Shown piece by piece: positions 3,155 to 60,911 of a stretch of 61,593 nucleotides of DNA; positions within the stretch are counted from its first letter, which is position 1, and each line of letters opens with the position of its first letter. The position numbers and the translations under genes were made by a program. Source of the DNA: Gemmatimonadota bacterium (GTDB lineage: Bacteria; Gemmatimonadota; Gemmatimonadetes; Gemmatimonadales; GWC2-71-9); NCBI GenBank assembly GCA_003221035.1, contig QHUB01000021.1, forward strand, positions 1 to 61,593. Reading direction: 5' to 3'. Under the pieces are notes generated by a model. It made no database searches, was not told the origin of the DNA, and was given only the letters and a program-made list of their open reading frames with translations.

Positions 3155-4289
3155 CGGGCAGAAGGTCGAGGAAATGCAGCTCGCCGCCGCGGCGTGCCAG
3201 GTGATCGTTGGCCTCCCGCTCCAGCACGACCGCGAGCAAGCCGTCGTGCGGATCGAAGATCAAGAAGTGCAGTGCCCGCTGTGTGCGGGAGCCGTCTGTG
3301 GCGGGATATTCCTCGAGCGGAAGTTGGAAGAAGGTGTGGAGCTGCACCGATGAGCAGCCTCGGAGCGCATACTCGACGATCATTCGGCCCGAATTGATGT
3401 TGCCGGTGCCTGAAAAAGGACGGTACGGGACGGTACGGGACGATAAGGGACGGTAAGAGTCCAAGACTCGCAGGTTTCTGTCGCTCAGATCCTGGCCGCC
3501 GTACGCGATCCCATGCTCCACGTCGTACAGCCGATTAAACACCGTAAGCGCGTCAGCGCCGCTCGCGGCATCCAGCATCGCGCGCTGAAAACCATCGTCG
3601 AAGCGCGCGTTCATCAGCTTCATCGCGAGCTTCACGGGCGCGTGCGCGCGGATGCGCCCCGGCACTTCGCGCAGCCAGCGGAGAATCTGCGCCTGTTCCG
3701 CGGCCAGCTCGTCACCGGCCAGGGTCGGCGAGAAATCCTTCTCGAGCAGGAGCGGTGTCTCGCCCCAGGCATCGGCCAGCGCACGCGTGGTAAACGCGTA
3801 CTCGGCGTCGCGAAACGGCTCATCCAAATGCGGGAGGTGATACTTCACCGACGGCACTGCCAGCAACCGGCCCGCGCGCGTGAGATCGCGACCCGCGCGC
3901 ACGAGCGCGAGATAATCGTCGAGCGAGCGGTCCCAGCCCCTGCCCTTCCAGGTCACGGTCCAGCCGTCCCCGCGACGCTCGACTTTCATTTTTGACTCGT
4001 GAATCGCCCACGCCGCCATCGACTGCTCGCCCGCGGCGTCCTGCGCGATGACAGTCTTGAGTACGACGAACGCGAGACCGGCTTCGGCATCTGTTTCGAG
4101 TTGTCCCGCGTTCAGCGAGAGCTGGCCGGAGCCCTTGCCGATCGGATGCGGCAGGGGCTGACCGAGAAACTGCGCGGACAGATTGATGCGATACGCATCG
4201 CGCACGTATTCCGGAAAGTCGCGCGGGAGCGCGCGCTTGAAGCGCTCGAAGTCGTTACTGAGCGAAGCGCGAGAGCCGGAACTGCTCAT
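3135..4289 (-). CDS. Dihydroorotate dehydrogenase-like FMN TIM-barrel protein
   Basis: A 384-residue protein with the order of motifs expected of a dihydroorotate/dihydropyrimidine dehydrogenase barrel: an N-terminal PIGKGSGQL segment, the GLAFVVLKTV strand, a VKLAMKL strand with Lys, GADALTVFNR, and a C-terminal FSGTGNINSG...EYALRGCSSVQLHTFF phosphate-binding end. These match the family's FMN-binding strands. Conservation is too loose to claim pyrimidine synthesis, and the context (racemase, FAD oxidoreductase, DapA-like enzyme) points to a catabolic oxidoreductase. Just before the FSGTGNI strand the gene carries a tandem decamer array (3417-3456) that encodes the odd peptide YRPLSSRTVPYRP. 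It starts inside the end of the FAD-oxidoreductase gene (35-bp overlap) and overlaps the next gene by 20 bp. Confidence 0.7.
   Translation of the reverse strand: MSSSGSRASLSNDFERFKRALPRDFPEYVRDAYRINLSAQFLGQPLPHPIGKGSGQLSLNAGQLETDAEAGLAFVVLKTVIAQDAAGEQSMAAWAIHESKMKVERRGDGWTVTWKGRGWDRSLDDYLALVRAGRDLTRAGRLLAVPSVKYHLPHLDEPFRDAEYAFTTRALADAWGETPLLLEKDFSPTLAGDELAAEQAQILRWLREVPGRIRAHAPVKLAMKLMNARFDDGFQRAMLDAASGADALTVFNRLYDVEHGIAYGGQDLSDRNLRVLDSYRPLSSRTVPYRPFSGTGNINSGRMIVEYALRGCSSVQLHTFFQLPLEEYPATDGSRTQRALHFLIFDPHDGLLAVVLEREANDHLARRGGELHFLDLLPDAHRAR
3417..3456. repeat. Four decamer repeats (GGGACGGTAC type) inside a coding sequence
   Basis: Four consecutive 10-bp units: AGGACGGTAC, GGGACGGTAC, GGGACGATAA, GGGACGGTAA. 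The array lies in frame inside the dihydroorotate-dehydrogenase-like gene, immediately before its conserved FSGTGNI strand. The core GGACGGT recurs in arrays at 43767, 50306 and, as GACGGTCG, at 6317. Confidence 0.9.
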
Positions 4290-5424
4290 TCGGCGCTTCT
4301 CCCGTCAGTACGAGCCGAGCCACCAGCTCGCCGACCGCCGGACCGTGCTTGAACCCGTGACCCGAGCCGCCGCCGAGCAGCCAGGTGTTCTGCGCGCGCG
4401 GATGGCGGTCGATGATGAAATGCTCGTCGGGCGACTGCTCGTACTGGCACACGCGCGACTCGAGCAGCGGCGCGTCCTTCAGGCCGGGGAAGCGGTAGGC
4501 GAGGTATTCGCGCGCGATCTGCAGGGCGGCGTCGCTCGGCTTCCGCTCGCCGGTGGTCGGATCGAACAGCGGGCCGCGCGTGTCGTCCGCGACCTTGAAG
4601 CCGCGCCACTCGTTGCCGGGAATGCCGTACATGAAGCGGGTCCCGTGGTCCGCCCAGACGGGCAGCGCTTCTTCCGTGAAGCGCCGGTCGCCTGCCGGCG
4701 TGCCGAAGAAGAACACCTCCTGACGCGTGGGGCGCACCCGCTCGCCGATCACGTCTGGAAACAACGCGCCGAGCCAGGGGCCGCAGGCAAAGACGAAAGC
4801 ATCAGCGGTCAGCCGGCTGCCATCAGTTAACTGGACACTGGACAGCTCGCCCGCGCGAGCGTCGATCGGTCCCTGCACACCGAGCTGCGTGTACTCGCCG
4901 CCCTCGGCGAGGAACGCCTCGAGCACCGCGGCGCAGGCGCGGCGCGCCGTGAGATAACCGGCATCGTGTTCGAGAATGGCCCACCGCACCTGCTCGCAGT
5001 TGATTTGCGGATACCGGCGCGCGACGTCGGCGCCTTGTAGCTCCTCGAAGTCGACGCGCGCGTCACGCAGGATCGGCAGCGCGGCCTTTTCGTACTGCTC
5101 GTCGCTCTCCACCAGCCAGAGCACACCGATCCTGTGAAGGAGCTGGCGATGCCAGCGCGTCTCGTGCTCCTTCCACAGCGCCAGCGCGCGCGCGGCCATG
5201 TGCGTGTAGACGGCACGCGTGCCATACGTGGCGCGAATCACGCGCGTCTCGCCCCCGGAGCTGGCGCGGGAGTTGCCGGGTCCCCAGGCATCGACCAGTG
5301 TGACGCGCGCGCCCCCCCCGCGGCGGCGCAGAAAGAGCGCCGTCCACCCGCCGAACGCACCCGCGCCGACGACTACGATGTGCCGCTGCTTGGCCTGTGG
5401 CATCAGGACGCCCCCAAGCGCCAC
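4255..5424 (-). CDS. FAD-dependent oxidoreductase, monomeric sarcosine oxidase type (DAO family), with Tat-like leader
   Basis: Amine/imino-acid oxidase-type flavoprotein. The Rossmann motif VVVGAGAFGG follows the N-terminus, and TLVDAWGPGNSRASSGGETR matches the sarcosine-oxidase family. RVCQYEQSPDEHFIID (Cys about 326) aligns with the cysteine that carries covalent FAD in monomeric sarcosine oxidase, and the C-terminal GGGSGHGFKHGPAVG closes the FAD site. From the first GTG (5424) the protein lacks a leader. In the same frame upstream the codons read ERRSFIKTSAAVALGGVLM, a near-perfect twin-arginine signal, beginning at 5463 with ACG where ATG would be expected. Either an ACG start is used and the enzyme is exported, or the leader has been lost. 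It directly follows the DapA-like gene and overlaps the next gene by 35 bp. Confidence 0.88.
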   Translation of the reverse strand: MALGGVLMPQAKQRHIVVVGAGAFGGWTALFLRRRGGGARVTLVDAWGPGNSRASSGGETRVIRATYGTRAVYTHMAARALALWKEHETRWHRQLLHRIGVLWLVESDEQYEKAALPILRDARVDFEELQGADVARRYPQINCEQVRWAILEHDAGYLTARRACAAVLEAFLAEGGEYTQLGVQGPIDARAGELSSVQLTDGSRLTADAFVFACGPWLGALFPDVIGERVRPTRQEVFFFGTPAGDRRFTEEALPVWADHGTRFMYGIPGNEWRGFKVADDTRGPLFDPTTGERKPSDAALQIAREYLAYRFPGLKDAPLLESRVCQYEQSPDEHFIIDRHPRAQNTWLLGGGSGHGFKHGPAVGELVARLVLTGEAPNEQFRLSRFAQ

Positions 5425-23870: not shown

Positions 23871-25637
23871 GTGACCACGCCCGACCGGCGCTCTCCCACC
23901 ACTGTGACGGCCGTCACCAGCGCCGTTTCGCAAACGCCGCCGGCGGGCCTGCTTGACGACGCCCTCCGGGCGCTCGAGCCCACGTTCCGGCTGGAGAACC
24001 TCGTGGCGCTGTCGTCGGAGCGCGCGCTGTATCACGGGTGGGATCGCGTGCTGAAGCGCCCCGTCACGATTCGCGTGCACCTCGCCGCCGCCGCGCCCGG
24101 TCGCGCCTGGTTCATGCGCGAGACCGAGACGTTGGCGCAGCTCGATCACCCGGCGATTCGGCACGTGTATGCCGCGGGTGAAATCGCCTCGTTCGCCTAT
24201 CGCACCGCGAACTGGATCGAGGGTGAGAGCCTGGCGGACGCGCTGCGGCGCGGGCCGCGCCCCATCCCCCAATGCATGTCGCTCATCCGCGATCTCCTCG
24301 CGGCGCTCGAGCACGCGCACGCGCGCGGCATCATCATGCGTCGCATTGTGCCGTCCACGCTGATGATCAACACCAGTGGCCAGGGGGTCATCACCGACCT
24401 GCGGTACTCCAACTGGTGCCTTCCCTACCTGCCTCCGTTGGCCGCCGACGACCCGGGCGCGGCGTACATGGCACCTGAGGTCCGCGCGGGGGACGCCGGT
24501 GACCCCGCCAGCGACGTGTACACGGTGACGGCGAACATCTACGTGGCGCTCACGGGCACGGCGCCGCACCTGGATGCCGCGCAGCTCGTGCTCCCGCGCC
24601 AGCTGCGCCCGGCCGTGCCGGCAGCGGTCGAGCGGGTGATCGTGCGCGCGCTGTCGCGCGTGCCCAAGGATCGCTACTACACGGCGACGGAGATGCTCGA
24701 GGACTTCGTCAGCGACGCGGGAACGTTCCAGGTGCTGGCGGCGGCGCCGGCCATCACCGAGTCGGGATTCGAGCGGCGGCTCAGGCGCGCGCTCGGCGAC
24801 GATTACGAGCTGCTCGAGGAAATCGGCGCGGGAGGGTTCGGTCGCGTGTATCGCGCGCGCGACCTCGCGCTCGAGCGCGACGTGGCGATCAAGGTCCTGC
24901 ATCCGGCGCTCACCGCGGATCCGGGTGTGGTGGAACGGTTCCGTCGCGAGGCCCAGCTCGCCGCGCGACTGCGCCATCCGAACATCGTGAGCATTTACGA
25001 CATTATGGCCCGTGCCGGGCTGACCTGGTACGCGATGGAGTTCGTGCCCGGCTCGAGCCTGGCGCAGGTCATTCAACGACACGGAACATTTTCGCTCGAC
25101 CAGACGGAGCGGCTCCTCAACGAAGCACTGTCCGCACTCGAGCACGCGCACGGCCTGGGACTGGTTCACCGCGACATCAAGCCCGAGAACATGCTGATCG
25201 AGCCCGACGGCCGGCTGCGCATCACTGACTTCGGGCTCGCGCTGGCGCTGCGCGGCGGGGCGCGCTTTGGGGGCGCGACCTCGCGCAGCGGCACGCCACA
25301 GTTCGCCGCGCCCGAGCAGCTGCTGGGCGAGCGCGTCGATCAGCGCGCCGACCTCTACTCGCTCGCGGCCGTCGCCTACTTCGCGCTGCTCGGCCGGCCG
25401 CCGTTCAGCGGCAAGACTCCGGAACAGATTCTCGCGCGGCAGACGACCGACGACGTGCCGTCCCTCGCGCCCGAGCGTCGCGACGTTCCGCGCGAGCTCG
25501 AGGACGCGCTGAAGCGCGCGCTGCGCAGCGATCCCAGCGAACGGTTTCACTCGGCGGGAGCATTTCAGGCTGCGGTGCGCGGGGCGTTCGGCGGATTCTT
25601 GCGACGACTGGCGGCGCTGTTTCGGCCGGAGAGTTGA
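23871..25637 (+). CDS. Tandem pseudokinase - serine/threonine protein kinase
   Basis: A 588-residue protein with two protein-kinase folds. The C-terminal one (about residues 311-575) is intact: Gly loop EIGAGGFGRVY, VAIK (Lys341), HRDIKPEN (Asp435), DFG (453-455) and APEQ. The N-terminal one (about 40-285) keeps the fold, with APEVRAG and DVYTVTANIYVALTG, but has lost every catalytic residue: VTIR replaces VAIK (Arg68), MRRIVPSTLM replaces HRDxKxxN, and DLR replaces DFG. It is therefore a pseudokinase. No transmembrane or sensor domain follows; the C-terminus is a short amphipathic LRRLAALFRPES. The GTG start begins 56 bp from the divergent DRR-repeat ORF. The pseudokinase probably regulates or scaffolds the active domain. 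Confidence 0.93.
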   Translation: MTTPDRRSPTTVTAVTSAVSQTPPAGLLDDALRALEPTFRLENLVALSSERALYHGWDRVLKRPVTIRVHLAAAAPGRAWFMRETETLAQLDHPAIRHVYAAGEIASFAYRTANWIEGESLADALRRGPRPIPQCMSLIRDLLAALEHAHARGIIMRRIVPSTLMINTSGQGVITDLRYSNWCLPYLPPLAADDPGAAYMAPEVRAGDAGDPASDVYTVTANIYVALTGTAPHLDAAQLVLPRQLRPAVPAAVERVIVRALSRVPKDRYYTATEMLEDFVSDAGTFQVLAAAPAITESGFERRLRRALGDDYELLEEIGAGGFGRVYRARDLALERDVAIKVLHPALTADPGVVERFRREAQLAARLRHPNIVSIYDIMARAGLTWYAMEFVPGSSLAQVIQRHGTFSLDQTERLLNEALSALEHAHGLGLVHRDIKPENMLIEPDGRLRITDFGLALALRGGARFGGATSRSGTPQFAAPEQLLGERVDQRADLYSLAAVAYFALLGRPPFSGKTPEQILARQTTDDVPSLAPERRDVPRELEDALKRALRSDPSERFHSAGAFQAAVRGAFGGFLRRLAALFRPES

Positions 25638-25640
25638 AGG

Positions 25641-26675
25641 CTACCGCCACCGGAAGATCTGCAGCGCAATCACGAAGCTCACTGCTCCCCAGGCCACGAC
25701 GACCGCAAGCGGCGCGCCCACGGTCGTGACCGACGCGCCGTCGATCATCACCGCGCGCAGCGCGTCGTTGAGCGCCGTGAGCGGCAGCGCTTTCACGAAC
25801 GGGATCATGGCATCCGGGAAGCGCGAGTAGGAGAAGAACGTCCCCGACAGGATCCACATCGGCAGCATCACGAGATTCATCAGCCCCGAGACGCCTTCGA
25901 TTGTCTTCGCGCGACTGGCGACGAGCAGTCCCAGTCCCGCGAACGAGAATGAGCCGAGCACCGTGATCCCGGCGAGCGAGGCGAAGGAGCCGCGGACCGC
26001 GACGCCAAACAGCAGCCAGCCGAACCCTACCAGCGCCACAACTTCCACGATCAGGAATACGAGTCGCGACAGGATGAAGCTCAGCAGATAGTGACTCTTG
26101 CGCATCGGCGTGGCCATGTAGCGCTTGAGCAGCTTGCGCTGGCGCGCCTGCACCACCGAGAACCCGACGCCCCAGATTCCACTGCCGAGCAGATTCATGC
26201 CGAGCAGGCCGGGAATGAGAAAGTCGATATAGCGCGAGCCCGGCGCGGCGGCGCGCTCATCGCGCACCGCGACCTGGTCCTTCCTGCCGCGGGCGCGCTG
26301 CACCACGTCATCCACGGCCAGGCGCGCCAGGCCGCTCTCGGTCCGTGTGGAATCGTAGCGATAGATGACCGGATCGCCGGGGATCGCAAGCAGCGCAATC
26401 CGGCCGGTCCTCAATCGCAGGCGCGCGGTCGCGGTATCGAGCACCGTCGCGACCAGGCGTGGCGACGCATCGAGCGTTGCGGCCAGCGCGCTGTCGCCCG
26501 GCCCACGCGCGACCCCGATCTGCAACTTGCCGGGGCCCGTGTTTCGGAATGCCAGTCCCAGCGCGAATGCCAGTACGATCGGAAATCCGAACACCCAGAA
26601 CACCGCCTCGGGCTCGCGATAGAACTCGCGCATGCGCGAGAGCGCCAGCTGGTACAGCGGATGCTCACGTATCAC
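25641..26675 (-). CDS. ABC-2 type transporter permease
   Basis: A 344-residue export permease with an N-terminal membrane helix (FWVFGFPIVLAFALGLAF), a roughly 130-residue extracytoplasmic domain, and five C-terminal helices including FSFAGLGLLVAS and MLPMWILSGTFFSYSRFP, the usual ABC-2/NodJ-like layout. The GTG start overlaps the ATPase stop by 11 bp. With the ATPase it forms an exporter of unknown substrate. Its stop is only 3 bp from the convergent kinase stop. Confidence 0.92.
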   Translation of the reverse strand: MIREHPLYQLALSRMREFYREPEAVFWVFGFPIVLAFALGLAFRNTGPGKLQIGVARGPGDSALAATLDASPRLVATVLDTATARLRLRTGRIALLAIPGDPVIYRYDSTRTESGLARLAVDDVVQRARGRKDQVAVRDERAAAPGSRYIDFLIPGLLGMNLLGSGIWGVGFSVVQARQRKLLKRYMATPMRKSHYLLSFILSRLVFLIVEVVALVGFGWLLFGVAVRGSFASLAGITVLGSFSFAGLGLLVASRAKTIEGVSGLMNLVMLPMWILSGTFFSYSRFPDAMIPFVKALPLTALNDALRAVMIDGASVTTVGAPLAVVVAWGAVSFVIALQIFRWR

Positions 26676-34441: not shown

Positions 34442-34443
34442 GA

Positions 34444-34515
34444 GGGAGAAGGGAGACGGGAGAGGTACGTGACGGCGCGTTTGCTGCGCACCGGATCGAA
34501 CATCTCCCTTCTCCC
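34444..34515. repeat. 13-bp perfect inverted repeat of GGGAGAA units
   Basis: GGGAGAAGGGAGA (34444-34456) and its exact complement TCTCCCTTCTCCC (34503-34515) are separated by 46 nt and fill the gap between the PIG-L stop and the binding-protein start at 34441. On the minus strand the 3' arm ends 3 bases before the ATG, so the structure could end the upstream message or mask the start. Confidence 0.8.
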
Positions 34516-34526
34516 CTCTCCTTGTC

Positions 34527-41214: not shown

Positions 41215-43080
41215 ATGGCTACCCTGGCCGAACCCAAACGGAAAATCAGCGCCGAAGAGGCGCGGGAAGTCGCCGAGGCGGCGCGCGAGGAGCAGTGGCA
41301 AGCGCCCAGCTTTGTCCGGGAGCTCTTCCTGGGCAACCTGCGGATGGACCTGATCCATCCCTACCCCGAGCAGGATCCCGACGAGATCGCCCGCGCCAAA
41401 CCGTTCCTCGACAAACTCGCCCGCTTTCTGCGTGAAGACGTAGACTCCGACAAAATCGACCGCGAAGGCGAGATCCCTCAGGACGTCATCGACGGGCTGC
41501 GCAAGCTCGGCGCGTTCGGCATCAAGATTCCGCGCGAGTACGGCGGCCTCGGGCTGTCGCAGCTCTCGTACATGAAGGCGATCGAGCTCGTGTCGTCGGT
41601 GGACGGCTCGCTCACGGCGCTGCTCTCGGCGCACCAATCGATCGGGTTGCCGCAGCCGCTGAAGCTATTCGGCAGCGAGGAGCAGAAAAAGAGATTCTTT
41701 CCGCGGCTTGCGAAGGGCGCCATTTCGGCGTTCGCGCTGACGGAGGAAAATGTCGGATCGGATCCCGCGGCGATGGAGACCACCGCAATCCGCGACGATG
41801 ATGAGTGGGTTCTGAACGGCGAGAAGCTGTGGTGCACCAACGGGACCAAGGCCGAGCTGCTCGTCGTGATGGCGCGGACGCCGTCGACGATGGTCAAGGG
41901 CCGCGAGAAGAAGCAGATCACCGCGTTCATCGTCGAGACGGACTGGCCGGGCGTCGAAGTGGTGTACCGCTGCCACTTCATGGGCCTGAAGGCGCTCTAC
42001 AACGGCGTGATCCGCTTCACCAACGTGCGCGTCCCGAAGGAGAACGTGCTCTGGGGTGAGGGCAAGGGTCTCAAGCTCGCGTTGGTGACGCTCAACACCG
42101 GCCGGTTGACGCTCCCGATTTCCGCCGTTGCGGCCGGCAAGCGTTGCCTGGAAATCTCGCGGCGCTGGGCGGCCGAGCGCGTGCAGTGGGGGCGGCCGAT
42201 CGGCCAGCACGACGCGATCGCGCAGAAGATCGGCTCCATGGCCGCGAACACGCTGGCGATGGAGGCGGTCGCCGAGCTGTGCGGCGCCATGGCGGAGCGC
42301 GGCGGCTACGACATCCGGCTCGAAGCGGCCATCGCCAAGCTGTACAACTCCGAGGCCGGCTGGCAGATCATCGATGACACCCTGCAGATTCGCGGCGGGC
42401 GCGGGTACGAGACGGCGGATTCCCTGCGCGCGCGCGGGGAAGCGCCCGTGCCGGTCGAGCGCATCATGCGCGACTTCCGCATCAACCTGATCTTCGAAGG
42501 ATCATCGGAGATCATGCATCTATTCATCGCGCGCGAAGCCGTGGACAAACATCTGCAGGTCGCGGGGGACGTCGTGATGCCCGGCAAGACGACGCAGGAG
42601 CGCCTTGCCGGCCTCGCGCGCTCGGCGGGCTTCTACGGCTGGTGGTACCCGACGCGCTGGCTCGGCTGGAGTTTGTGGCCGCGCTATTCCGAGTTCGGCA
42701 AGCTCGCGAAGCACGTGCGCTTTGTGGAGCGCAGCTGCCGGCGCCTGGCGCGCAGCGTGTTCCATTCGATGATCCGGTTCGGGCCGAAGCTCGAGCTGCG
42801 CCAGTCGGTGTTGTTCCGGCTCGTGGACGTCGCGGCCGAGCTATTCGCCATGGCGGCGACCTGCTCGCGCGCGCAGAAGCTCTACGAGCGCGATCGCACG
42901 ACGGGCGCGCGGGCGGTGAAGCTGGCAGACTTGTTCTGCCGCCAAGCCAGACGCCGTGTGCGCTCCAAGTTCAACGGTCTACGGCGGAATGAGGATGTGC
43001 CGACGTACCGGTTTGCGCAGGAGATTCTGGCTGGCGAACACCGCTGGCTGGAAAAGGACATCGTCGAGCTGGAATCCTGA
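41215..43080 (+). CDS. Acyl-CoA dehydrogenase, long (ACAD9/VLCAD-like) form
   Basis: A 621-residue FAD acyl-CoA dehydrogenase for fatty-acid beta-oxidation. FALTEENVGSDPAAMETTA, LNGEKLWCTNG, QIRGGRGYETADSL and LIFEGSSEIMHLFIAREA (the Glu aligns with the catalytic base) are present. A further roughly 180 residues follow the normal core, as in VLCAD/ACAD9-type enzymes whose C-terminus binds membranes; the segment contains basic and aromatic stretches (GFYGWWYPTRWLGWSLWPRY). The ATG at 41215 is the start best supported by alignment to the family N-terminus. Confidence 0.94.
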   Translation: MATLAEPKRKISAEEAREVAEAAREEQWQAPSFVRELFLGNLRMDLIHPYPEQDPDEIARAKPFLDKLARFLREDVDSDKIDREGEIPQDVIDGLRKLGAFGIKIPREYGGLGLSQLSYMKAIELVSSVDGSLTALLSAHQSIGLPQPLKLFGSEEQKKRFFPRLAKGAISAFALTEENVGSDPAAMETTAIRDDDEWVLNGEKLWCTNGTKAELLVVMARTPSTMVKGREKKQITAFIVETDWPGVEVVYRCHFMGLKALYNGVIRFTNVRVPKENVLWGEGKGLKLALVTLNTGRLTLPISAVAAGKRCLEISRRWAAERVQWGRPIGQHDAIAQKIGSMAANTLAMEAVAELCGAMAERGGYDIRLEAAIAKLYNSEAGWQIIDDTLQIRGGRGYETADSLRARGEAPVPVERIMRDFRINLIFEGSSEIMHLFIAREAVDKHLQVAGDVVMPGKTTQERLAGLARSAGFYGWWYPTRWLGWSLWPRYSEFGKLAKHVRFVERSCRRLARSVFHSMIRFGPKLELRQSVLFRLVDVAAELFAMAATCSRAQKLYERDRTTGARAVKLADLFCRQARRRVRSKFNGLRRNEDVPTYRFAQEILAGEHRWLEKDIVELES

Positions 43081-43098
43081 ACGCCGGCACGAGGCGCG

Positions 43099-43833
43099 CT
43101 ACGCGGCCTCGTGGGCGATCATGATACTCCGCAAGCGGTCAGCGCCATCGGCGCCGGCATCACCATACGGCGACGGGTGGCCTTCCTGCTCCATCACCAC
43201 ACTCGGACACACGAGCGGATACTGCCGCGCCCGGATGCGATCGGCCGCCGGCTGAGCAGCCACCGGTGTCGCAATCACGACCTCGCGAGCGCCGAGTCCT
43301 TGAGCGGCCTTGGCCGCGGCGAGCGCCTTCCACGGCCACACGATCTGCCCGTCCACGACCACCGCGGTGCGGCCCTCGAGCTTTTTGACGGGACGCTGCG
43401 TGCGATACAGCACGAGATCCTGCTTGACCCGTGCGCGTGACTCGTCGATCGCCGCCTGCAGCTTCTCGAGCAGGTTCATCCCCGGCTGGAAGTCGGGATC
43501 CATCTCCGCGGGTGCCGTCTCGGCCATGGCGCCGATGGGGGCGAGATTGGCGCCAAGTTTGATGAAGGACGCAACGATGACGTCGAATTGCGCGCCCATG
43601 GCGCGGGCCGCGTGCGCCGCGATTTCAACGCCTTCCGGGGTAATGCCAAGAAGAATGCAGGATTGGTAACCGCGGGACGCGAGCTGTTGGCCCAGCAGGG
43701 CGCCGGCGCTCGAACGCGTTGGGTAGAGACTGGGTCTTGGTTGCGCCACAATGGCCAAGATAGGATGACGGGACGGGACGGTAAAGGACGTCTCTTCCCA
43801 TCCGATTCGCGTTATCTTTTCCCGCTCAAACAT
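43099..43833 (-). CDS. Phosphoribosyltransferase-like protein with degenerate PRPP loop
   Basis: A 244-residue protein resembling bacterial PRTase-fold proteins: SSAGALLGQQLASRGYQSCILLGITPEGVEIAAHAARAMGAQFDVIVA corresponds to the N-terminal block, with SFIKLGA where a KLG motif is expected. AVVVDGQIVWPWKALAAAKAAQGLGAREVVIATPVA corresponds to the PRPP-binding strand. The PRPP loop, normally VDDGIATGAT, here reads VDGQIVWPWKA, so catalysis is doubtful. The first about 30 codons include a GACGG repeat and may be leader; a TTG further in is an alternative start. It is divergent from citrate synthase, 13 bp away. Confidence 0.7.
   Translation of the reverse strand: MFEREKITRIGWEETSFTVPSRHPILAIVAQPRPSLYPTRSSAGALLGQQLASRGYQSCILLGITPEGVEIAAHAARAMGAQFDVIVASFIKLGANLAPIGAMAETAPAEMDPDFQPGMNLLEKLQAAIDESRARVKQDLVLYRTQRPVKKLEGRTAVVVDGQIVWPWKALAAAKAAQGLGAREVVIATPVAAQPAADRIRARQYPLVCPSVVMEQEGHPSPYGDAGADGADRLRSIMIAHEAA
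43767..43790. repeat. GACGG pentamer repeat near the phosphoribosyltransferase-like start
   Basis: GACGG three times in tandem, then TAAAGGACG, at the 5' end of the phosphoribosyltransferase-like gene and 60-80 bp upstream of the citrate synthase start. It has the same GGACGGTA core as the arrays at 3417 and 50306. Confidence 0.65.
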
Positions 43834-45472: not shown

Positions 45473-45475
45473 CGA

Positions 45476-46687
45476 CTAGCGCCGTTTACCGCCCCGTCTC
45501 GGTCTCAACGACCGCTCCGGCTTCGGCGCTTCCGCGATCGCCAGCTTGGGCTGAAACGGCGCCACCGACGGCTCGAATCCCGGAATCACTTCCCGCGGGA
45601 AGTTCTGCCCGATCAGCCGCTCGACATCCGCCATCAACAGCCATTCGTCCGGCGAGATGAGCGTCAGCGCGAGGCCGCGCGCGCCCGCGCGCGCCGTGCG
45701 GCCGACGCGGTGCACGTACACTTCGGCATCCTGCGGCACGTCGAAGTTCACGACCATGCGGATTCCCTCGACGTCGATGCCGCGCGCCGCGATGTCCGTC
45801 GCCACCAGGATCTCGGCGGCGCCGCTGCGGAACTGATCGAGCGTGCGCGTGCGATGGCTCTGCGCCTTGTCGCCGTGCAGCGCGTTCGCCGCGATGCCCT
45901 CGCGCTTGAGGAAGGTGACGAGCTTGTCCGCCCCGTATTTCGTCCGCGTGAAGATCAGCGTTTGGCCGGCGGGCTTTGCCTTGAGAATCGCGCCGAGCGC
46001 GCCGCGCTTCTGCAGCTTGTCGACCGCGACGATCACGTGCTCGATGCCCTCGGCGGTCTGCGCCCGGCGGCCGATCTCGACCGACGCGTGCCCGTTCAGC
46101 GCGCGCCGCGCCAGCGCGTCGACTTCGGGTGAAATCGTCGCCGAGAACAGCATCGTCTGCCGCTCGTCCGGCAGCGTGTTGAGGATGCGCCGCACGTCGG
46201 GGGCGAATCCCATGTCCAGCATGCGGTCGGCTTCATCGAGCACCAGCACTTCGAGCTGCGAGAAGTCGACGTGGCCCCGCTCCATGTGATCGAGCAAGCG
46301 GCCCGGCGTGGCGACGATCATGTCTACGCCGTGCTTCAGGGCGCGCGTCTGCGGCTCCATCCCGACGCCGCCGTACACGGCCGCGCCCTTGAGATGGGTG
46401 TGGCGGCCGTACGTCTTGATGCTGGTGGCAACCTGCTCCGCCAGCTCACGGGTCGGGACGAGGATCAGCGCGCGCAGCGTGCCGCGCGGTCCGGGGGAGA
46501 GGCGCTGGAGAATGGGGAGCACAAACGCGGCCGTCTTGCCGGTGCCGGTCTGTGCGGAGCCGATGAGATCTCGGCCCGCGAGTGCCAGGGGAATCGCTTC
46601 CGCCTGGATGGGGGTTGGCTGCGCGTAGCCTTCATCGGCGACGGCGCGAACCAGTTCGGGCGCTAGGCCCAATGCTGCAAATGGCAT
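45476..46687 (-). CDS. rhlE: DEAD-box RNA helicase, RhlE type
   Basis: A 403-residue ATP-dependent RNA helicase: Q motif (YAQPTPIQAEAIP), Walker A AQTGTGKT (45-52), PTRELAEQ, VLDEADRMLDMGF, SAT in LFSATISPEVDALA, and HRVGRTARAG near the end. The C-terminus is short and basic (SLRPRRGGKRR), giving an RhlE-like size. The ATG is preceded by AAGGAG. A long structured leader suggests autoregulation or temperature response, as in other helicase genes. Confidence 0.95.
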   Translation of the reverse strand: MPFAALGLAPELVRAVADEGYAQPTPIQAEAIPLALAGRDLIGSAQTGTGKTAAFVLPILQRLSPGPRGTLRALILVPTRELAEQVATSIKTYGRHTHLKGAAVYGGVGMEPQTRALKHGVDMIVATPGRLLDHMERGHVDFSQLEVLVLDEADRMLDMGFAPDVRRILNTLPDERQTMLFSATISPEVDALARRALNGHASVEIGRRAQTAEGIEHVIVAVDKLQKRGALGAILKAKPAGQTLIFTRTKYGADKLVTFLKREGIAANALHGDKAQSHRTRTLDQFRSGAAEILVATDIAARGIDVEGIRMVVNFDVPQDAEVYVHRVGRTARAGARGLALTLISPDEWLLMADVERLIGQNFPREVIPGFEPSVAPFQPKLAIAEAPKPERSLRPRRGGKRR

Positions 46688-46830: not shown

Positions 46831-46894
46831 CAGCTCGCGGTTCTTTGCACCAACAACATAACTACCTAGACGCCTAGATCAAAGCCTCGAGGGA

Positions 46895-46938
46895 GACGCC
46901 GAGCGGCTGAGAGGCCGAGGGGCCGGCCTCTCAGCGTC
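46895..46938 (-). terminator. Strong GC-rich hairpin after the TolB-amidohydrolase gene
   Basis: A perfect 12-bp stem (GCTGAGAGGCCG 46906-46917 with CGGCCTCTCAGC 46924-46935), loop of 6, and an outer GACGC/GCGTC pair. It lies 7-50 bp downstream of the stop at 46945. No T-run follows, so termination would not be classical. Confidence 0.65.
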
Positions 46939-46944
46939 TTCCTG

Positions 46945-49900
46945 CTACCTCACCGTCTCGGCGGCTTTGGCAGGTTCGGTGCCCCACCACCACAGCTTGG
47001 GGAGCGGCCGCTGCCGAGGATAGATCTCGTTCAGCGTCTCCCCTTCGTAGAGACGCCCGTTTTTCATGACATAGCGCACCGTGTTCGTGTTATGGATGTC
47101 TTCCAGAGGATTGGCGTCCAGCACGATCAAGTCCGCCAGCTTGCCCGGCTCCAGCGAGCCGAGGTCCTGCTCCATGCCGATGGCGTGCGCGCCGTTGATG
47201 GTCGCGACCTTGAGCACATCGTGCGACTTCATGCCGCCCGCCGCCATGGCCCACAGCTCCCAGTGGTCGCCCAAGCCGTCCATTTGGCCGTGGCCCCCCA
47301 GTCCGATGAAACCGCCGGCCTGGAGAATCGCGTTCGCTGATGCCGCGATGCGCGGGAACACATATTCGCTCTCGCGGAACCACGGCCGCCGCTCGGCACG
47401 CTGATCGATTTCATCGTGCGGCATGAACCGCCGCACCTTCGGGTTGTCGTGAATGTCGTAGCGCTCGTAGAAAAAATTCTCGCTCCAGGGACCGCCGTAC
47501 GAGACGAGCAATGTGGGCGTGTATGTGATGCCCGACTGCGCGATCAACTGCACGGCATCCTTGTACAGCGGCATGATCGGATAGCTGTGCTCCGATCCGG
47601 GATAGCCGTCGAGCACGGCGGTCAAATTCATCTTGAAGTCGAGCCCGCCCTCGAGCGTGGGCATAAGCCCCAGCTCTTTGGCGGCCATGATGACCCACTG
47701 CCGCTGCTTGCGATTGCCCGTCATGTACATCTTGATCGTGTTGATCCGGTAGAACTCGCTGTAGCGCCGCAGCGCTTGCCGCGTGTCTTCCAGACTCTTG
47801 AAGTCCTCGGACCAGAAGACGCCGGGACCGGTATGGTAGATGCGCGGGCCCAGGATTTCGCCCGTCTCCACCAGGTCCGAATACGTCAGCACGTCGGTGG
47901 TGGAGGTCTGGGGATCGCGCGTGGTCGTGACGCCCCACGCGAGATTGGCGAGATACTTCCAGACCTGGGTCTCGTGAATGCCCCACGTCGGCCAGGGGTG
48001 CGCGTGCACGTCCACGAAGCCGGGAATGATCGTCTTCCCGCTGACGTCGATGACTTTTGCACCCGCCGGCGCCGCTCCTCCCTGCGGGCCCACCGAGACG
48101 ATGCGATTGTCCTTGACCACGACGTCACCGTTCTCGATGACTTCGTCTCCCTTCATGGTGATGATGCGCGCGCCCCGCAGCACCACGGTGCCCCGCGGGA
48201 TGTCGCGCGGGACATGGATGGCGACATCGACGCGCGGCGGCTCGTAGGCCGGCAACTTGGCGAGCGAATCGGCGCGTGCCCGCATCTTCTTCGTCACGGA
48301 ATCGGGCAACGCCTTGAACGCGTCACCTTTGAGCGAGTCCGAGCGAATCGAGTCCGTCCGCTGTTTCAGCTTGTCCATCGAGTCGGCGACGACCGGATCC
48401 CACTTCAAGAACGAGCGACCGGCCGACCAGAACGCCTGCTTCCCGTCGTTCGTCCAGCCGATGAACTCGCCGCCGATCATCGTGAGCCGCTTGACCGGGA
48501 ATGCCGCGGACGACGGATCGGAGATGCTGACGACCGGCGTCTGCCCGCCGATCAGAGGTAACGTGACCAGGTAGACGTAATTGTCGACCGCCGCGAGCAC
48601 GCGATCGGAATCGGGACTGATCAGGATCTCATCGGCGATGTTGGGCTCGGACCCGGGGCCCGGATACGTGTAGCCCGTCACCCGGATGTGCTGGCGTCGA
48701 TCGGTGCCGTCATAGCGCATCGACACGAGGCCTTCCGGGCCCTCATAGATGTAGATGCGGTTCGGGTCGCGGCTGAAATGCGGCCGGCCCCAGTTGTTGA
48801 TGGGCGAGATCTTGGTCAGGGTGCCGCCCGCCGCGGGCACCCAGTCGATCTCGTAGCCGGGTGCGAAGTGCTCCTCGGTCCGCGGCGCCCGTGGGCCTCG
48901 CACGACCACGATGCGGGCCCCATCCGGAGACCAGACGGGTGTGTCGTAAAACGCGCTGTCGCTTGTGAGGCGCACCGGGCGGCTGCCCGGCGTCGCCTTG
49001 ATCTTGTCGAGCGTCCCGCCCTGATCGGTCCAGGTCACATACGCGAGCCACTGACCATCCGGGGACCACGCGGGCACCTGCTCCTTGATGGAGTCGTTCG
49101 TCAGTCGCCGCGGGGTGCCGTTCGGCAGGTCCATCACGTAGAGCCGGTCGAGCGCGCTGAAGGCGAGCCGTTTGCCGTCGGGAGATGGCGACGCGTTCCG
49201 AATCTGCCGGACCAGCACGGCGGCCGTGTCCACGCGCATCGGGATATGGACCATGGGACCGAGCTGTTGCTCGACCGCGGCCGTAAACGGAATGTCGGTC
49301 ACCTGCCCCGATGGCACGGCGACGCGATGCACTTTGCCGCCGTAGGAGACGATGATGGCCTGGTTGTCGGGCGTGAACGAGTAGCCGGGATACAGGTCGC
49401 GGGTGAAGCGGGATTCCTGATCGTCGCGCGTCACCGGGTACACGAGCCACCGTTCGTCACCCGACGCCATGTTCCGGAGCCGCAGGCCGGTCTCTGCATC
49501 GTAGCGCGTCGCATAGACCAGCCATTTGCCGTCCGACGACAGCGCGGGCCGCATCGCGCTGCCATACGTGTCGGTCTGCGGAAACAGCCGTCCGGTCTGG
49601 CGATCGTAAATCGCGAGCTCCCACAGCGGATACTGAAGGTTGTAGCCGAAGCCGCCGCGATGCCGCGAGACCCAGATGTAGCGCGGATCCTTGCCGAAGG
49701 CGGCGCCGAGCGTGTTCATGGGCGGGGGAGCGTTGGGGCCGGCCTGGACGCGCAACATCGCCGCACCCGTGCCGCCGTCCTTGTGAATCAGCCACAGCTC
49801 GTACACGCTGCCGAGCACGCCACTCGTCCGCGAGACGACGATGTAGTTGCCTTCGGGCGTCCACTCCGGCGAAGCGAAGAGATTGTTCGTGCCTTTGGTC

Positions 49901-50289
49901 AGCGCCTTCTTGTGCGAGCCGTCGGGGTCGCACAGCCAGACATTTTCCGCACCGCTCAGGTCCGACAAAAAGACGATCCGCTTGCCGTCGGGCGACCAGC
50001 GCGGCTGCGAGTCGAACGCCGGGCCTGAGGTAATGCGCGTCGCCGTGCCGCCCGCGACCGGCATCGTGTACAGATCACCGAGGAGCTCGAACACGATGGT
50101 CTTGCCGTCGGGCGAAACATCGAGCGACATCCACGTCGCTTCCGATGTCTCGAAGCTCACGGTGCGCGCCGTTTTCAGCGGTAAGGAGTCGAGCTTGACC
50201 TTGGTGGTATCGCGTTTCGTCGTGTCTTGTGGGGGAGGAGGCGGTGGTTGTTGAACAGCGAGGCCGACCGCTAGAAGCAAGGACAGCAT
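46945..50289 (-). CDS. Secreted TolB-like beta-propeller / amidohydrolase fusion protein
   Basis: A 1114-residue protein. A signal peptide (MLSLLLAVGLAVQQ) and a Pro run lead into PD40/TolB-type propeller repeats (residues about 45-620) with repeated WSPDGKRIVF-type blades. An amidohydrolase domain (about 690-1090) follows: IPGFVDVHAHPWP (HxH), a TTTRDPQTST segment, an EGGLDF region, GLGGHGQMDG and LGSLEPGKLADLIVLDANPLED. This fusion is common in Gemmatimonadota and Bacteroidota and is thought to act on peptides or cyclic amides in the periplasm. AGGAG lies before the ATG. Its 67-bp leader is made almost entirely of TACCGTC repeats. Confidence 0.93.
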   Translation of the reverse strand: MLSLLLAVGLAVQQPPPPPPQDTTKRDTTKVKLDSLPLKTARTVSFETSEATWMSLDVSPDGKTIVFELLGDLYTMPVAGGTATRITSGPAFDSQPRWSPDGKRIVFLSDLSGAENVWLCDPDGSHKKALTKGTNNLFASPEWTPEGNYIVVSRTSGVLGSVYELWLIHKDGGTGAAMLRVQAGPNAPPPMNTLGAAFGKDPRYIWVSRHRGGFGYNLQYPLWELAIYDRQTGRLFPQTDTYGSAMRPALSSDGKWLVYATRYDAETGLRLRNMASGDERWLVYPVTRDDQESRFTRDLYPGYSFTPDNQAIIVSYGGKVHRVAVPSGQVTDIPFTAAVEQQLGPMVHIPMRVDTAAVLVRQIRNASPSPDGKRLAFSALDRLYVMDLPNGTPRRLTNDSIKEQVPAWSPDGQWLAYVTWTDQGGTLDKIKATPGSRPVRLTSDSAFYDTPVWSPDGARIVVVRGPRAPRTEEHFAPGYEIDWVPAAGGTLTKISPINNWGRPHFSRDPNRIYIYEGPEGLVSMRYDGTDRRQHIRVTGYTYPGPGSEPNIADEILISPDSDRVLAAVDNYVYLVTLPLIGGQTPVVSISDPSSAAFPVKRLTMIGGEFIGWTNDGKQAFWSAGRSFLKWDPVVADSMDKLKQRTDSIRSDSLKGDAFKALPDSVTKKMRARADSLAKLPAYEPPRVDVAIHVPRDIPRGTVVLRGARIITMKGDEVIENGDVVVKDNRIVSVGPQGGAAPAGAKVIDVSGKTIIPGFVDVHAHPWPTWGIHETQVWKYLANLAWGVTTTRDPQTSTTDVLTYSDLVETGEILGPRIYHTGPGVFWSEDFKSLEDTRQALRRYSEFYRINTIKMYMTGNRKQRQWVIMAAKELGLMPTLEGGLDFKMNLTAVLDGYPGSEHSYPIMPLYKDAVQLIAQSGITYTPTLLVSYGGPWSENFFYERYDIHDNPKVRRFMPHDEIDQRAERRPWFRESEYVFPRIAASANAILQAGGFIGLGGHGQMDGLGDHWELWAMAAGGMKSHDVLKVATINGAHAIGMEQDLGSLEPGKLADLIVLDANPLEDIHNTNTVRYVMKNGRLYEGETLNEIYPRQRPLPKLWWWGTEPAKAAETVR

Positions 50290-50305
50290 GGACGCTCCTG
50301 TAAAC

Positions 50306-50431
50306 GACGGTAGATATGGCGACGGTAGAAACTGCGACGGTAGAAAATGCGACGGTAAAAAAACGACGGTAAGGGTCAGGCCCCGACCGTCGTTTCACCT
50401 ACAGCCCTCTACCGTCGATTTATCTACCGTC
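50306..50431. repeat. 15-bp-period GACGGTA array with inverted TACCGTC copies
   Basis: GACGGTA begins at 50306, 50321, 50336, 50351 and 50365 (spacing 15, 15, 15, 14), with spacers resembling GAAAATGC. Inverted copies follow: GACCGTC at 50385, and TACCGTC at 50410 and 50425 (again 15 apart). The array fills the gap between the XRE regulator and the TolB-amidohydrolase gene. Confidence 0.9.
50357..50395 (-). terminator. Intrinsic terminator of the XRE regulator gene
   Basis: On the minus strand AAACGACGGT pairs perfectly with ACCGTCGTTT across a 15-nt loop and runs into TTTT, giving seven consecutive T. It lies 40 bp after the regulator stop. It is formed from one forward and one inverted unit of the GACGGTA array. 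Confidence 0.85.
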
Positions 50432-50434
50432 TAG

Positions 50435-51112
50435 TTAGATACTCAACGCCCTAACTTGACGGGGAGCAGGATCTTGTGAGCGCAGGACAATCCGCATCGC
50501 GTGCGTATCAAGATCGATGTCCCACCCGGCAATGCGCGGCCTGACAAATTCCTCACCATCCTCGGGGGTCAGACCCTCGGGTGTGGCGTCGAGGAATTCC
50601 ATCAGCTTCATCCGCATCTCGAGATAGGTGCAGCCGTCCCGGCTCGCCGCGATCCGGATCCCGACATCGTCATCGAGCTGGCGCCGCACAAACCCTTGCG
50701 CCACTTCGAGCAAGCGCCCCACGACGACCCGCTCCAGCATCACGCCGTCTTTGCGGGCGAGCCGGCGCGCCAGGAGGCGCGCGCGCGCCTGGTCGAGGTG
50801 AAGTGCGAGGAACTGGTCTCGGATCTCCGGATGCGGCCGGCGCTTGCTCTTCGTCTCGCCATCCCGCTCCGCCTTCGCGCAGGTCGGGAGGTCGTTCCGG
50901 TGCAACTTCAGGAACTTGGTCATCGGCGCGTAGACGTCCATACGACCCGGAGCGGGGGGACGCCGACGGCCCGCAACTAGATCAGCGATATAGACTTCAG
51001 ACACCTGAACCGCATCCGCCAGTTCGCGCGGGGTGCGCTTCAATTCACGCAACCGGCGCCGTACCAATTCTCCAACCTTGACGGGGCGCTTCAGGGGGAG
51101 GGCAGCCGCCAT
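50435..51112 (-). CDS. XRE-type helix-turn-helix regulator with C-terminal domain
   Basis: A 225-residue protein. The N-terminal helix-turn-helix is KVGELVRRRLRELKRTPRELADAVQVSEVYIADLVAGRRRPP (residues about 12-53), an XRE/Cro-type fold. The remaining about 165 residues are helical and charged (RARLLARRLARKDGVMLERVVVGRLLEVAQGFVRR), then a DDDVGIRIAASRD and AGWDIDLDTHAMRIVL beta region, probably for sensing or dimerisation. The ATG at 51112 has an ideal AAAGGAG 5 nt upstream; earlier starts would run through the operator. It is divergent from the AhpD-like/chrB pair and is the natural candidate to bind the palindrome at 51227-51244. Confidence 0.82.
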   Translation of the reverse strand: MAAALPLKRPVKVGELVRRRLRELKRTPRELADAVQVSEVYIADLVAGRRRPPAPGRMDVYAPMTKFLKLHRNDLPTCAKAERDGETKSKRRPHPEIRDQFLALHLDQARARLLARRLARKDGVMLERVVVGRLLEVAQGFVRRQLDDDVGIRIAASRDGCTYLEMRMKLMEFLDATPEGLTPEDGEEFVRPRIAGWDIDLDTHAMRIVLRSQDPAPRQVRALSI

Positions 51113-51206
51113 GTAGGCTCCTTTGTTAGCCGTGTTTGTGGGGTCGGGGAATATCGCTAAATGCAGGCAAAAACGGTAGTTCTGCCGCCCGAACCGACAG
51201 CGTCCC

Positions 51207-51236
51207 TTGTCTTGGTCGTGATAGACGTGATACAAT
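51207..51236 (+). promoter_or_regulatory. Candidate promoter of the AhpD-like/chrB operon
   Basis: TTGTCT (51207-51212) and TACAAT (51231-51236) with an 18-bp spacer resemble a sigma-70 promoter. The predicted start would fall at or just before the ATG at 51248, giving a leaderless or nearly leaderless message, consistent with the lack of a Shine-Dalgarno sequence. The -10 lies inside the palindrome. Confidence 0.45.
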
Positions 51237-51244
51237 TGTATCAC
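51218..51244. promoter_or_regulatory. Palindromic operator GTGATACAATTGTATCAC with extra half-site
   Basis: An 18-bp perfect palindrome at 51227-51244, preceded by a further GTGATA half-site at 51218-51223 (9-bp spacing). It ends 3 bp before the ATG at 51248 and lies between the divergent XRE regulator and AhpD-like gene. The TACAATTGTA core also fits the TACANNTGTA consensus of CopY/BlaI-type repressors, none of which is encoded here. Confidence 0.8.
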
Positions 51245-59462: not shown

Positions 59463-59472
59463 CGGGTTGGTA

Positions 59473-59500
59473 GTAGGGGCGCAGCATGCTGCGCCCCTAC
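59473..59500. terminator. 28-bp perfect palindrome, probable bidirectional terminator / dispersed repeat
   Basis: GTAGGGGCGCAGCA is followed at once by its exact complement TGCTGCGCCCCTAC. It lies between the convergent M1 peptidase and pntB stops and is followed by CTTTT on the plus strand. Palindromes of the GTAGGGGC...GCCCCTAC form are, from general knowledge, dispersed repeats in many genomes. Confidence 0.85.
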
Positions 59501-59504
59501 CTTT

Positions 59505-60911
59505 TCAATGTATCCCGCCGCTCCCGAACTGTTTGACCAGGTCCGACAGTACGGCCTTCGCGTCACCGAACAACATCCAGGTGTTGTCGAGGGTGTACAG
59601 CTCATTGTCGATGCCGGCGAAACCAGGATTCTTGCTGCGCTTCACGGCGAGCACCGTTTTCGCTTTGTCCGCATCGATGATCGGCATACCGTAGATGGGC
59701 GTGCTCTTGGCATAGCGCGCGGCTGGATTCACCACATCGTTCGCGCCGAGCACCAGCGCCACGTCGGTCTGCGGCATTTCGGGATTGATCTCATCCATCT
59801 CGACCAGCGCCGAATACGGAATGTTGGCCTCGGCGAGCAGCACGTTCATGTGGCCCGGCATGCGACCCGCGACCGGGTGAATTGCGAACTTGACGGTGAT
59901 GCCGCGCTTGCTGAGGGCGTCGTACAGCTCGGCGACTTTGTGCTGCGCTTGCGCAACCGCCATCCCGTAGCCCGGAATGATGACGACGGTACGCGCCTGC
60001 TCGAGCATCTGCGCGGCACCCTCGACGGTCTCCTGCTTCCACGCCTTCTGCTCGCCCGCGGCGAGTGCCGGCTGTGCCTTGCCGAACGCTCCGAACAACA
60101 CGTTGGTGAACGACCGGTTCATCGCTCGACACATGATGATCGAGAGAATCAAGCCGCTCGAGCCGTCGAGCGCGCCCGCCGTCACGAGGAGCTTGCTGTC
60201 GAGCACGAAGCCCATCGCCACGGCCGAAAGTCCCGCGTAGGCGTTCAGGATCGAGATCACGGTCGGCATGTCGGCGCCGCCGATTGGAATGATGAGAAAC
60301 ACACCGAAGATCAGCGCCAGGACCACGATCGCGAGAAATGCCTGCTGCGCCCACGGCGCGCCCGGGTGGAGCACCACGGCGACCGCAAGGCCAATCGCAA
60401 TCGCGAGCGCGCCGACGTTGACGACGTTTTGTCCCGGATAGGTGACCGGCCGCTGCGGGATCCATTTCACTTCCTGCAGCTTGCCCGCCGCCATGAGGCT
60501 GCCGGTGAACGTGAGAAATCCGAGGATCACTTCGGCGCACAGCGCGCCCATGCGGAAATGCGTCATCTCGACGGCCGCGTCACCGCCACGCCACAGAAAG
60601 TATTCGGCGGCGCCCACGAGTCCGGCCGCCAGGCCGCCGAACGCGTGCGAGAGCGCGGTTCGCTGCGGCACCGCCGTCAGGGGCACGCGCGACAGCGGCA
60701 CGCCGACCACAAATCCCAGCGCGATCGCGCCGATGATCCAGCGGTGGTGGATGATCCCGGGCTGGATCCAGGTCGCCAGTATGGCGACCGTCATGCCGAT
60801 GACGCCGGCGTACACGCCGCGCCGCGCCGTCTTGGGATCGTTCATCCAGTTCAGCGCGAAGATGAACAACGCCGTCGCCAGAATGGCGGACAGCTCGCTG
60901 ATGGTGCGCAT
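59505..60911 (-). CDS. pntB: NAD(P) transhydrogenase subunit beta
   Basis: A 468-residue membrane subunit of the proton-translocating transhydrogenase that couples the proton gradient to NADPH formation. It has about nine helices (residues 5-265), then the NADP-binding dIII domain with VVIIPGYGMAVAQAQHKVAELYDAL, AIHPVAGRMPGHMNVLLAEA and ANDVVNPAA...YGMPIIDADKAKTVLAVKRSKNPGFAG. The ATG at 60911 overlaps the stop of the small membrane subunit (TGATG). Confidence 0.97.
   Translation of the reverse strand: MRTISELSAILATALFIFALNWMNDPKTARRGVYAGVIGMTVAILATWIQPGIIHHRWIIGAIALGFVVGVPLSRVPLTAVPQRTALSHAFGGLAAGLVGAAEYFLWRGGDAAVEMTHFRMGALCAEVILGFLTFTGSLMAAGKLQEVKWIPQRPVTYPGQNVVNVGALAIAIGLAVAVVLHPGAPWAQQAFLAIVVLALIFGVFLIIPIGGADMPTVISILNAYAGLSAVAMGFVLDSKLLVTAGALDGSSGLILSIIMCRAMNRSFTNVLFGAFGKAQPALAAGEQKAWKQETVEGAAQMLEQARTVVIIPGYGMAVAQAQHKVAELYDALSKRGITVKFAIHPVAGRMPGHMNVLLAEANIPYSALVEMDEINPEMPQTDVALVLGANDVVNPAARYAKSTPIYGMPIIDADKAKTVLAVKRSKNPGFAGIDNELYTLDNTWMLFGDAKAVLSDLVKQFGSGGIH

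Follow-up and report, generated by a model that had tools for sequence, protein, structure and literature searches.

What is the array of short repeats that fills the gap between two genes of the minus strand in this Gemmatimonadota genome, and how did it come to be there? The window, the whole stretch of 61,593 nucleotides that was analysed, contains 17 occurrences of the heptamer GACGGTA where 3.4 are expected (a count reached in none of 100 shuffles), and seven of the 17 fall within the 126 bp of this array.

Layout and fold of the array

The gap, its two neighbouring genes and a second array of the window have the following features.

46945-50289, minus strand: PD40 (TolB-like) propeller/amidohydrolase fusion gene, with its ATG at 50289
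50290-50356, minus strand: amidohydrolase leader, largely made of array; conserved leader at this place in array-free congeners
50306-50371, plus strand: left arm of the array, five GACGGTA units at 50306, 50321, 50336, 50351 and 50365
50357-50395, minus strand: terminator-like hairpin, stem 50361-50375/50381-50395, then T7 at 50357-50363
50372-50409, no strand: centre of the array, a palindromic GGGTC..GGCCCC loop, GACCGTC and a degenerate spacer
50410-50431, minus strand: right arm of the array, two exact inverted units (TACCGTC) at 50410 and 50425
50435-51244, minus strand: HTH (XRE-like) gene, the upstream neighbour, with HTH_3/HTH_31 matches below the Pfam cut-off
3419-3463, plus strand: second GACGGTA array of the window, with 10-bp spacing and a forward block only

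An earlier, sequence-only reading had described repeat units and inverted copies with a 15-bp period in this gap, and this description is confirmed. Five forward units, spaced 15, 15, 15 and 14 bp, are accompanied by two exact inverted units and an imperfect one, the GACCGTC at 50385-50391. On the minus strand, the array as a whole is predicted to fold as a long hairpin of -65 kcal/mol (z = -5.8, 0 of 200 shuffles). As for the neighbours, the same reading was right about the PD40/amidohydrolase fusion, while its XRE call is based on HTH_3/HTH_31 matches below threshold (E about 4e-4).

Dispersal of GACGGTA arrays

GACGGTA arrays are dispersed in this genome and its genus. With 10- or 15-bp spacing they lie in about a dozen places of the 3.36-Mb genome, where the array pattern has 46 matches against 0 for a reversed-pattern control, and a survey of 31 genomes found them in 13, most of which belong to the same genus. 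Among the 46 array blocks that were read, a few are unrelated units containing ACGGTA. Most follow an inverted plan, in which a short palindrome of the AGGGTC..GACCC type separates a forward from an inverted block, and some arrays are single-block. Among named relatives, the 10-bp form is found chiefly in soil and groundwater Gemmatimonadetes. The array of the window escaped a strict detector of tandem arrays, and since a looser version missed the known arrays at 34442 and 46889, we claim no genome-wide density. The longest block seen, fourteen GACGGTA units in one orientation at C82:1170-1367 of G000 (L003), may be a slippage expansion of half an element.

PF05635 genes inside the arrays

On contig C57 of this genome, a GACGGTA array encloses an intact PF05635 gene, coding for a 23S rRNA intervening-sequence protein (IVP) whose nearest solved structure is 2GSC. 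The same insertion on C101 of G006 has its PF05635 gene inverted and partly deleted, an intermediate on the way to losing the IVP. L267, in G109, is another PF05635 gene enclosed by GACGGTA arrays, and its protein groups with the C57 type; the GACGGTA unit is linked to one IVP clade. In total this genome has 11 PF05635 genes (PF05635 coordinates here are those of HMM matches, not curated starts), flanked mostly by inverted arrays with a unit that varies from element to element. Other IVP-less arrays of the genome match the units of its PF05635 elements, as with GGTGTCT on C73 and C85.

The array in the window has the inverted arms of short tandem units by which we would delimit a PF05635 class of elements, and between these arms there is no PF05635 gene, just a 38-bp centre. 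Since arrays of the same unit carry the gene at C57, at L267 and, in decayed form, at G006 C101, we place the window array as their IVP-less relative. The majority of GACGGTA arrays are without an IVP gene, and for this reason their descent from an IVP-bearing copy is deduced from unit and architecture.

Mirror-image flanks and unit period

To score the architecture, the left flank of each PF05635 gene was locally aligned with the reverse complement of its right flank. The score was at least 20 in 46 of 53 PF05635 elements from this genome, its relatives and plasmids, among which related elements are not fully independent samples, against 13 of 400 random windows and 10 of 400 ORFs of that size. 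The median score was 26-28, compared to 11-12 for swapped flanks. The threshold of 20 was picked after viewing these scores; of 27 held-out loci, 25 of them phylum-wide and two from Shewanella, 21 reached it versus 2 of 60 swapped pairs. Clear inverted arrays are missing around about 15-20% of PF05635 genes. Judged from sequence, PF05635 genes in several bacterial phyla appear to lie nearly always between mirror-image repeat arrays.

Within one element, the two arms match each other closely. The main unit length, in 47 elements, is 7 (or 14) in 31 and 8 (or 16) in 12, and this period follows the IVP tree: five changes between the states 7 and not-7 account for its distribution over the proteins, a number as low being reached in 0 of 1000 shuffles, with L047, G006 C101 and L051 (10 bp) scored as not-7 and L175 assigned by eye. 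Close IVP proteins have units in common, and unit similarity fades fast with distance. Overall it is only weakly correlated with protein distance (Mantel r 0.14, 23/2000).

The Shewanella contig L145 has seven TACCGTCCCT units at 4284-4350, a 10-bp unit shared with Gemmatimonadota. These units have no PF05635 gene close by; two such genes lie elsewhere on the contig, one with a borderline array.

Occupied and empty sites

Presence and absence at orthologous positions were read at the gap of the window array and at the first three of the following places in the window.

34442-34522, no strand: IVP-less inverted array, unit GGGAGAA; other units in the same gap of G007 and G001
43072-43100, no strand: empty IVP site; PF05635 gene here in G002, G003 and G008, in arrays of three different units
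45474-45476, no strand: empty site at the helicase stop codon; GACGGTA array here in the congener G003
46889-46943, no strand: IVP-less inverted array, its sequence similar to the arms of L045, the PF05635 element of C76

Because the G-numbered genomes are draft assemblies, an absence may in some cases reflect a gap in the assembly, although the empty sites used lie inside contigs. The window array is itself present in some species and absent from others: the gap between the XRE-like and amidohydrolase genes has the array in G001 and G003 and is without it in G002, G004 and G007, while G008 has three units on a single side of a plain terminator and G009 an array of another unit, TAGACGGT. At the helicase stop codon, a decayed array remains in G002 and G008. 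The empty IVP site consists of a few tens of bases in the window and G007, with a short remnant-like stretch in G001. In the gap at 34442-34522, three species have arrays, each of a different unit, while a fourth species has half an array and a fifth has no array. In the occupied and empty pairs, which are few and have diverged flanks, the junctions are ragged and no target-site duplication or precise excision was evident. Taken together, occupied and empty sites support mobility of the element, with the IVP as its presumed driver.

A small cupredoxin-like ORF (about 430-490 bp, described from sequence) is present in G007 and G002 at the place of 25633-25645 and is missing from the window.

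Could the arrays have arisen without moving? They might expand in place from palindromes such as terminators by hairpin-templated replication slippage, with the IVP as a passenger or merely tolerated. Such expansion would account for one gap having different units in different species, and hairpin-templated slippage would also keep the two arms of an element as alike as they are. In a few cases, some bases of the unit are already there in the empty site, namely GACG for the helicase stop and GGAAT for the IVP site, making either microhomology targeting or local seeding possible. However, one genome and its genus have GACGGTA at many sites that are not linked to each other, and close IVP proteins share units; moreover, slippage brings no PF05635 gene of about 400 bp, nor does it explain why PF05635 genes are so flanked. 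We therefore regard expansion in place as unlikely.

Mobilization by RAYT (Y1) or another ordinary transposase, as for REPINs or MITEs, would make the IVP irrelevant. The arrays are like REPINs in being short, dispersed intergenic hairpins with an inverted arrangement (PMC3116915), and 15 of the 31 surveyed genomes, most members of the genus among them, have Y1_Tnp genes. The arrays differ in that the arms are multi-unit tandem arrays with a varying unit and that PF05635 takes the place of a Y1 transposase as the associated gene. Furthermore, tandem GACGGTA units were found at 0 of 13 Y1_Tnp loci examined, and GGGGCGCAGCATGCTGCGCCCC, a palindrome of another kind, flanks the single weak Y1_Tnp gene found in this genome; PF05635 genes, by contrast, do sit inside such arrays. 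With no Y1 transposase flanked by the GACGGTA repeat among the loci examined, we do not assign the window array to REPIN/RAYT, and consider this route of mobilization for the arrays in general quite improbable.

The REP-like palindrome GGGGCGCAGCATGCTGCGCCCC is also present in the window (59472-59505). It is found on both sides of the Y1_Tnp gene (L230, 1130-1180 and 1890-1920) and, in G002, G005 and G008, within array sites.

Terminator-like hairpin and leader in the gap

The terminator-like hairpin stands downstream of the XRE-like gene, both neighbouring genes being on the minus strand, and its T7 corresponds to A7 at 50357-50363 on the plus strand. Sequence and folding give a hairpin and a T run after the upstream gene, the signature of a putative intrinsic terminator, in agreement with the earlier proposal that one pair of units forms such a terminator with a T7 run; congeners have a plain hairpin-plus-T terminator at the same position. 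A simple terminator scanner run on the window did not list the array's hairpin. The 67 bp that had been counted before the amidohydrolase ATG are correct, as the stretch from the T7 tract to the ATG at 50289 is 50290-50356. In G002, G007, G008 and G009, this ATG is preceded by a conserved leader of about 30 bp, with GCCGTCGTTCTTCCATCCGGAGA..CCATG as the common form, of which the genome of the window retains only the last bases. Given the plain terminator and conserved leader in the orthologous gaps, it appears that the array overwrote most of the amidohydrolase leader and, incidentally, made a new terminator for the XRE-like gene.

The array does occupy the leader, with five regularly spaced units, but the suggestion that it serves this one gene as a multi-site operator or as a leader controlling translation is highly improbable, as GACGGTA arrays are scattered over unrelated gaps, are missing at orthologs that keep the conserved leader, and, in the search of other genomes that had been proposed as a check, are not conserved before amidohydrolase orthologs.

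A probable mobile hairpin element and its IVP-less copies

The array in the window is probably a miniature, IVP-less member of a dispersed family of elements whose complete copies bear an IVP. A complete element consists of a PF05635 four-helix-bundle gene between two inverted arms of tandem short units. As the tandem arms are inverted, one strand could fold as a long hairpin with the gene in its loop. The IVP may bind the arms as folded RNA or single-stranded DNA, and may help a separate enzyme to copy the hairpin or to insert it near gene ends. The IVP-less copies might move in trans or might be deletion products. In the window, the inner pair of such a copy would now form the terminator-like hairpin of the XRE-like gene and its outer units would have replaced most of the ancestral amidohydrolase leader.

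A solved relative of the IVP is a ring of five four-helix bundles, a pentamer (PMC4990558, citing Lin 2006). Avd of the diversity-generating retroelements, a reported structural relative of PF05635, is essential for retrohoming with a reverse transcriptase (PMC10053308). In this genome, no RVT_1 gene was found as a reverse-transcriptase partner.

Relation to known repeats and intervening sequences

The closest known arrangement is the intervening sequence (IVS) of the Coxiella burnetii 23S rRNA, in which an S23p/IVP ORF lies in the loop of a stem of terminal inverted repeats, with variable tandem heptamers (GACAGAT) before the ORF; it has been called selfish, its mobility unexplained (PMC4990558). 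The elements described here share with it a PF05635 ORF in a stem loop and, in the case of Coxiella, tandem heptamers beside the ORF. They differ in lying between protein genes, in being in many cases without an ORF, and in having element-specific tandem arrays as arms. The window array itself was rejected as a 23S rRNA IVS: it sits between protein genes, has no PF05635 gene, and an Rfam search of the window gave no match.

Cyanobacterial STRRs and the TAACTGA repeats of Beggiatoaceae are likewise dispersed intergenic tandem heptamers, with no evident mechanism of spread (PMC4679880). The arrays here resemble them as short tandem heptamers dispersed in gaps, whereas the TAACTGA sets are mostly direct repeats ahead of start codons, with no PF05635 link reported there. 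In the open-access literature searched, which excludes subscription papers and preprints, we found no prior description of a link between the IVP and such arrays.

More tentatively, and with slightly less than even confidence, we propose that PF05635 (S23/IVP) four-helix-bundle proteins mark a widespread class of small mobile hairpins, with tandem-array arms whose element-specific unit changes along the protein lineage and with no known transposase; that the 23S rRNA IVS is the form of this class inserted in rRNA genes; and that its IVP-less relatives include many of the heptamer arrays found between genes, for instance in cyanobacteria. The function of S23/IVP, the origin of the 23S rRNA IVS and the spread of intergenic heptamers have been separate puzzles, which a common architecture would join. 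This architecture is measurable in dozens of elements, from Gemmatimonadota to cyanobacterial plasmids and an Azospirillum rRNA gene, and poses the direct question of whether the IVP recognizes its own arms.

The Azospirillum case is an unannotated PF05635 ORF in a 23S rRNA gene on plasmid AZO_p2 of Azospirillum lipoferum (L194, 13598-15485), a location read from the flanking sequence as the record is unannotated there. Around the ORF of this IVS are inverted GAGGACGGATGACA-type arrays, like those of the Gemmatimonadota elements.

The same inverted-array design is found with PF05635 copies on cyanobacterial plasmids, some inside cas operons. In L186, L187 and L189, the PF05635 genes lie in cas operons, between Cmr2/Cmr3 or cas6/cas4, and as they are flanked by short-unit arrays they look like insertions. 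Accordingly, some of the IVP genes reported in cas loci (PMC3936711, PMC10910872) may be insertions and not CRISPR components. The long AAAAGCT/AAAAGCC arrays beside the PF05635 gene of L187 are direct, not inverted. One heptamer, GGAGTCA, is present in IVP elements of both cyanobacterial plasmids and Gemmatimonadota (L180-L185, L111, L112, L254 and L256).
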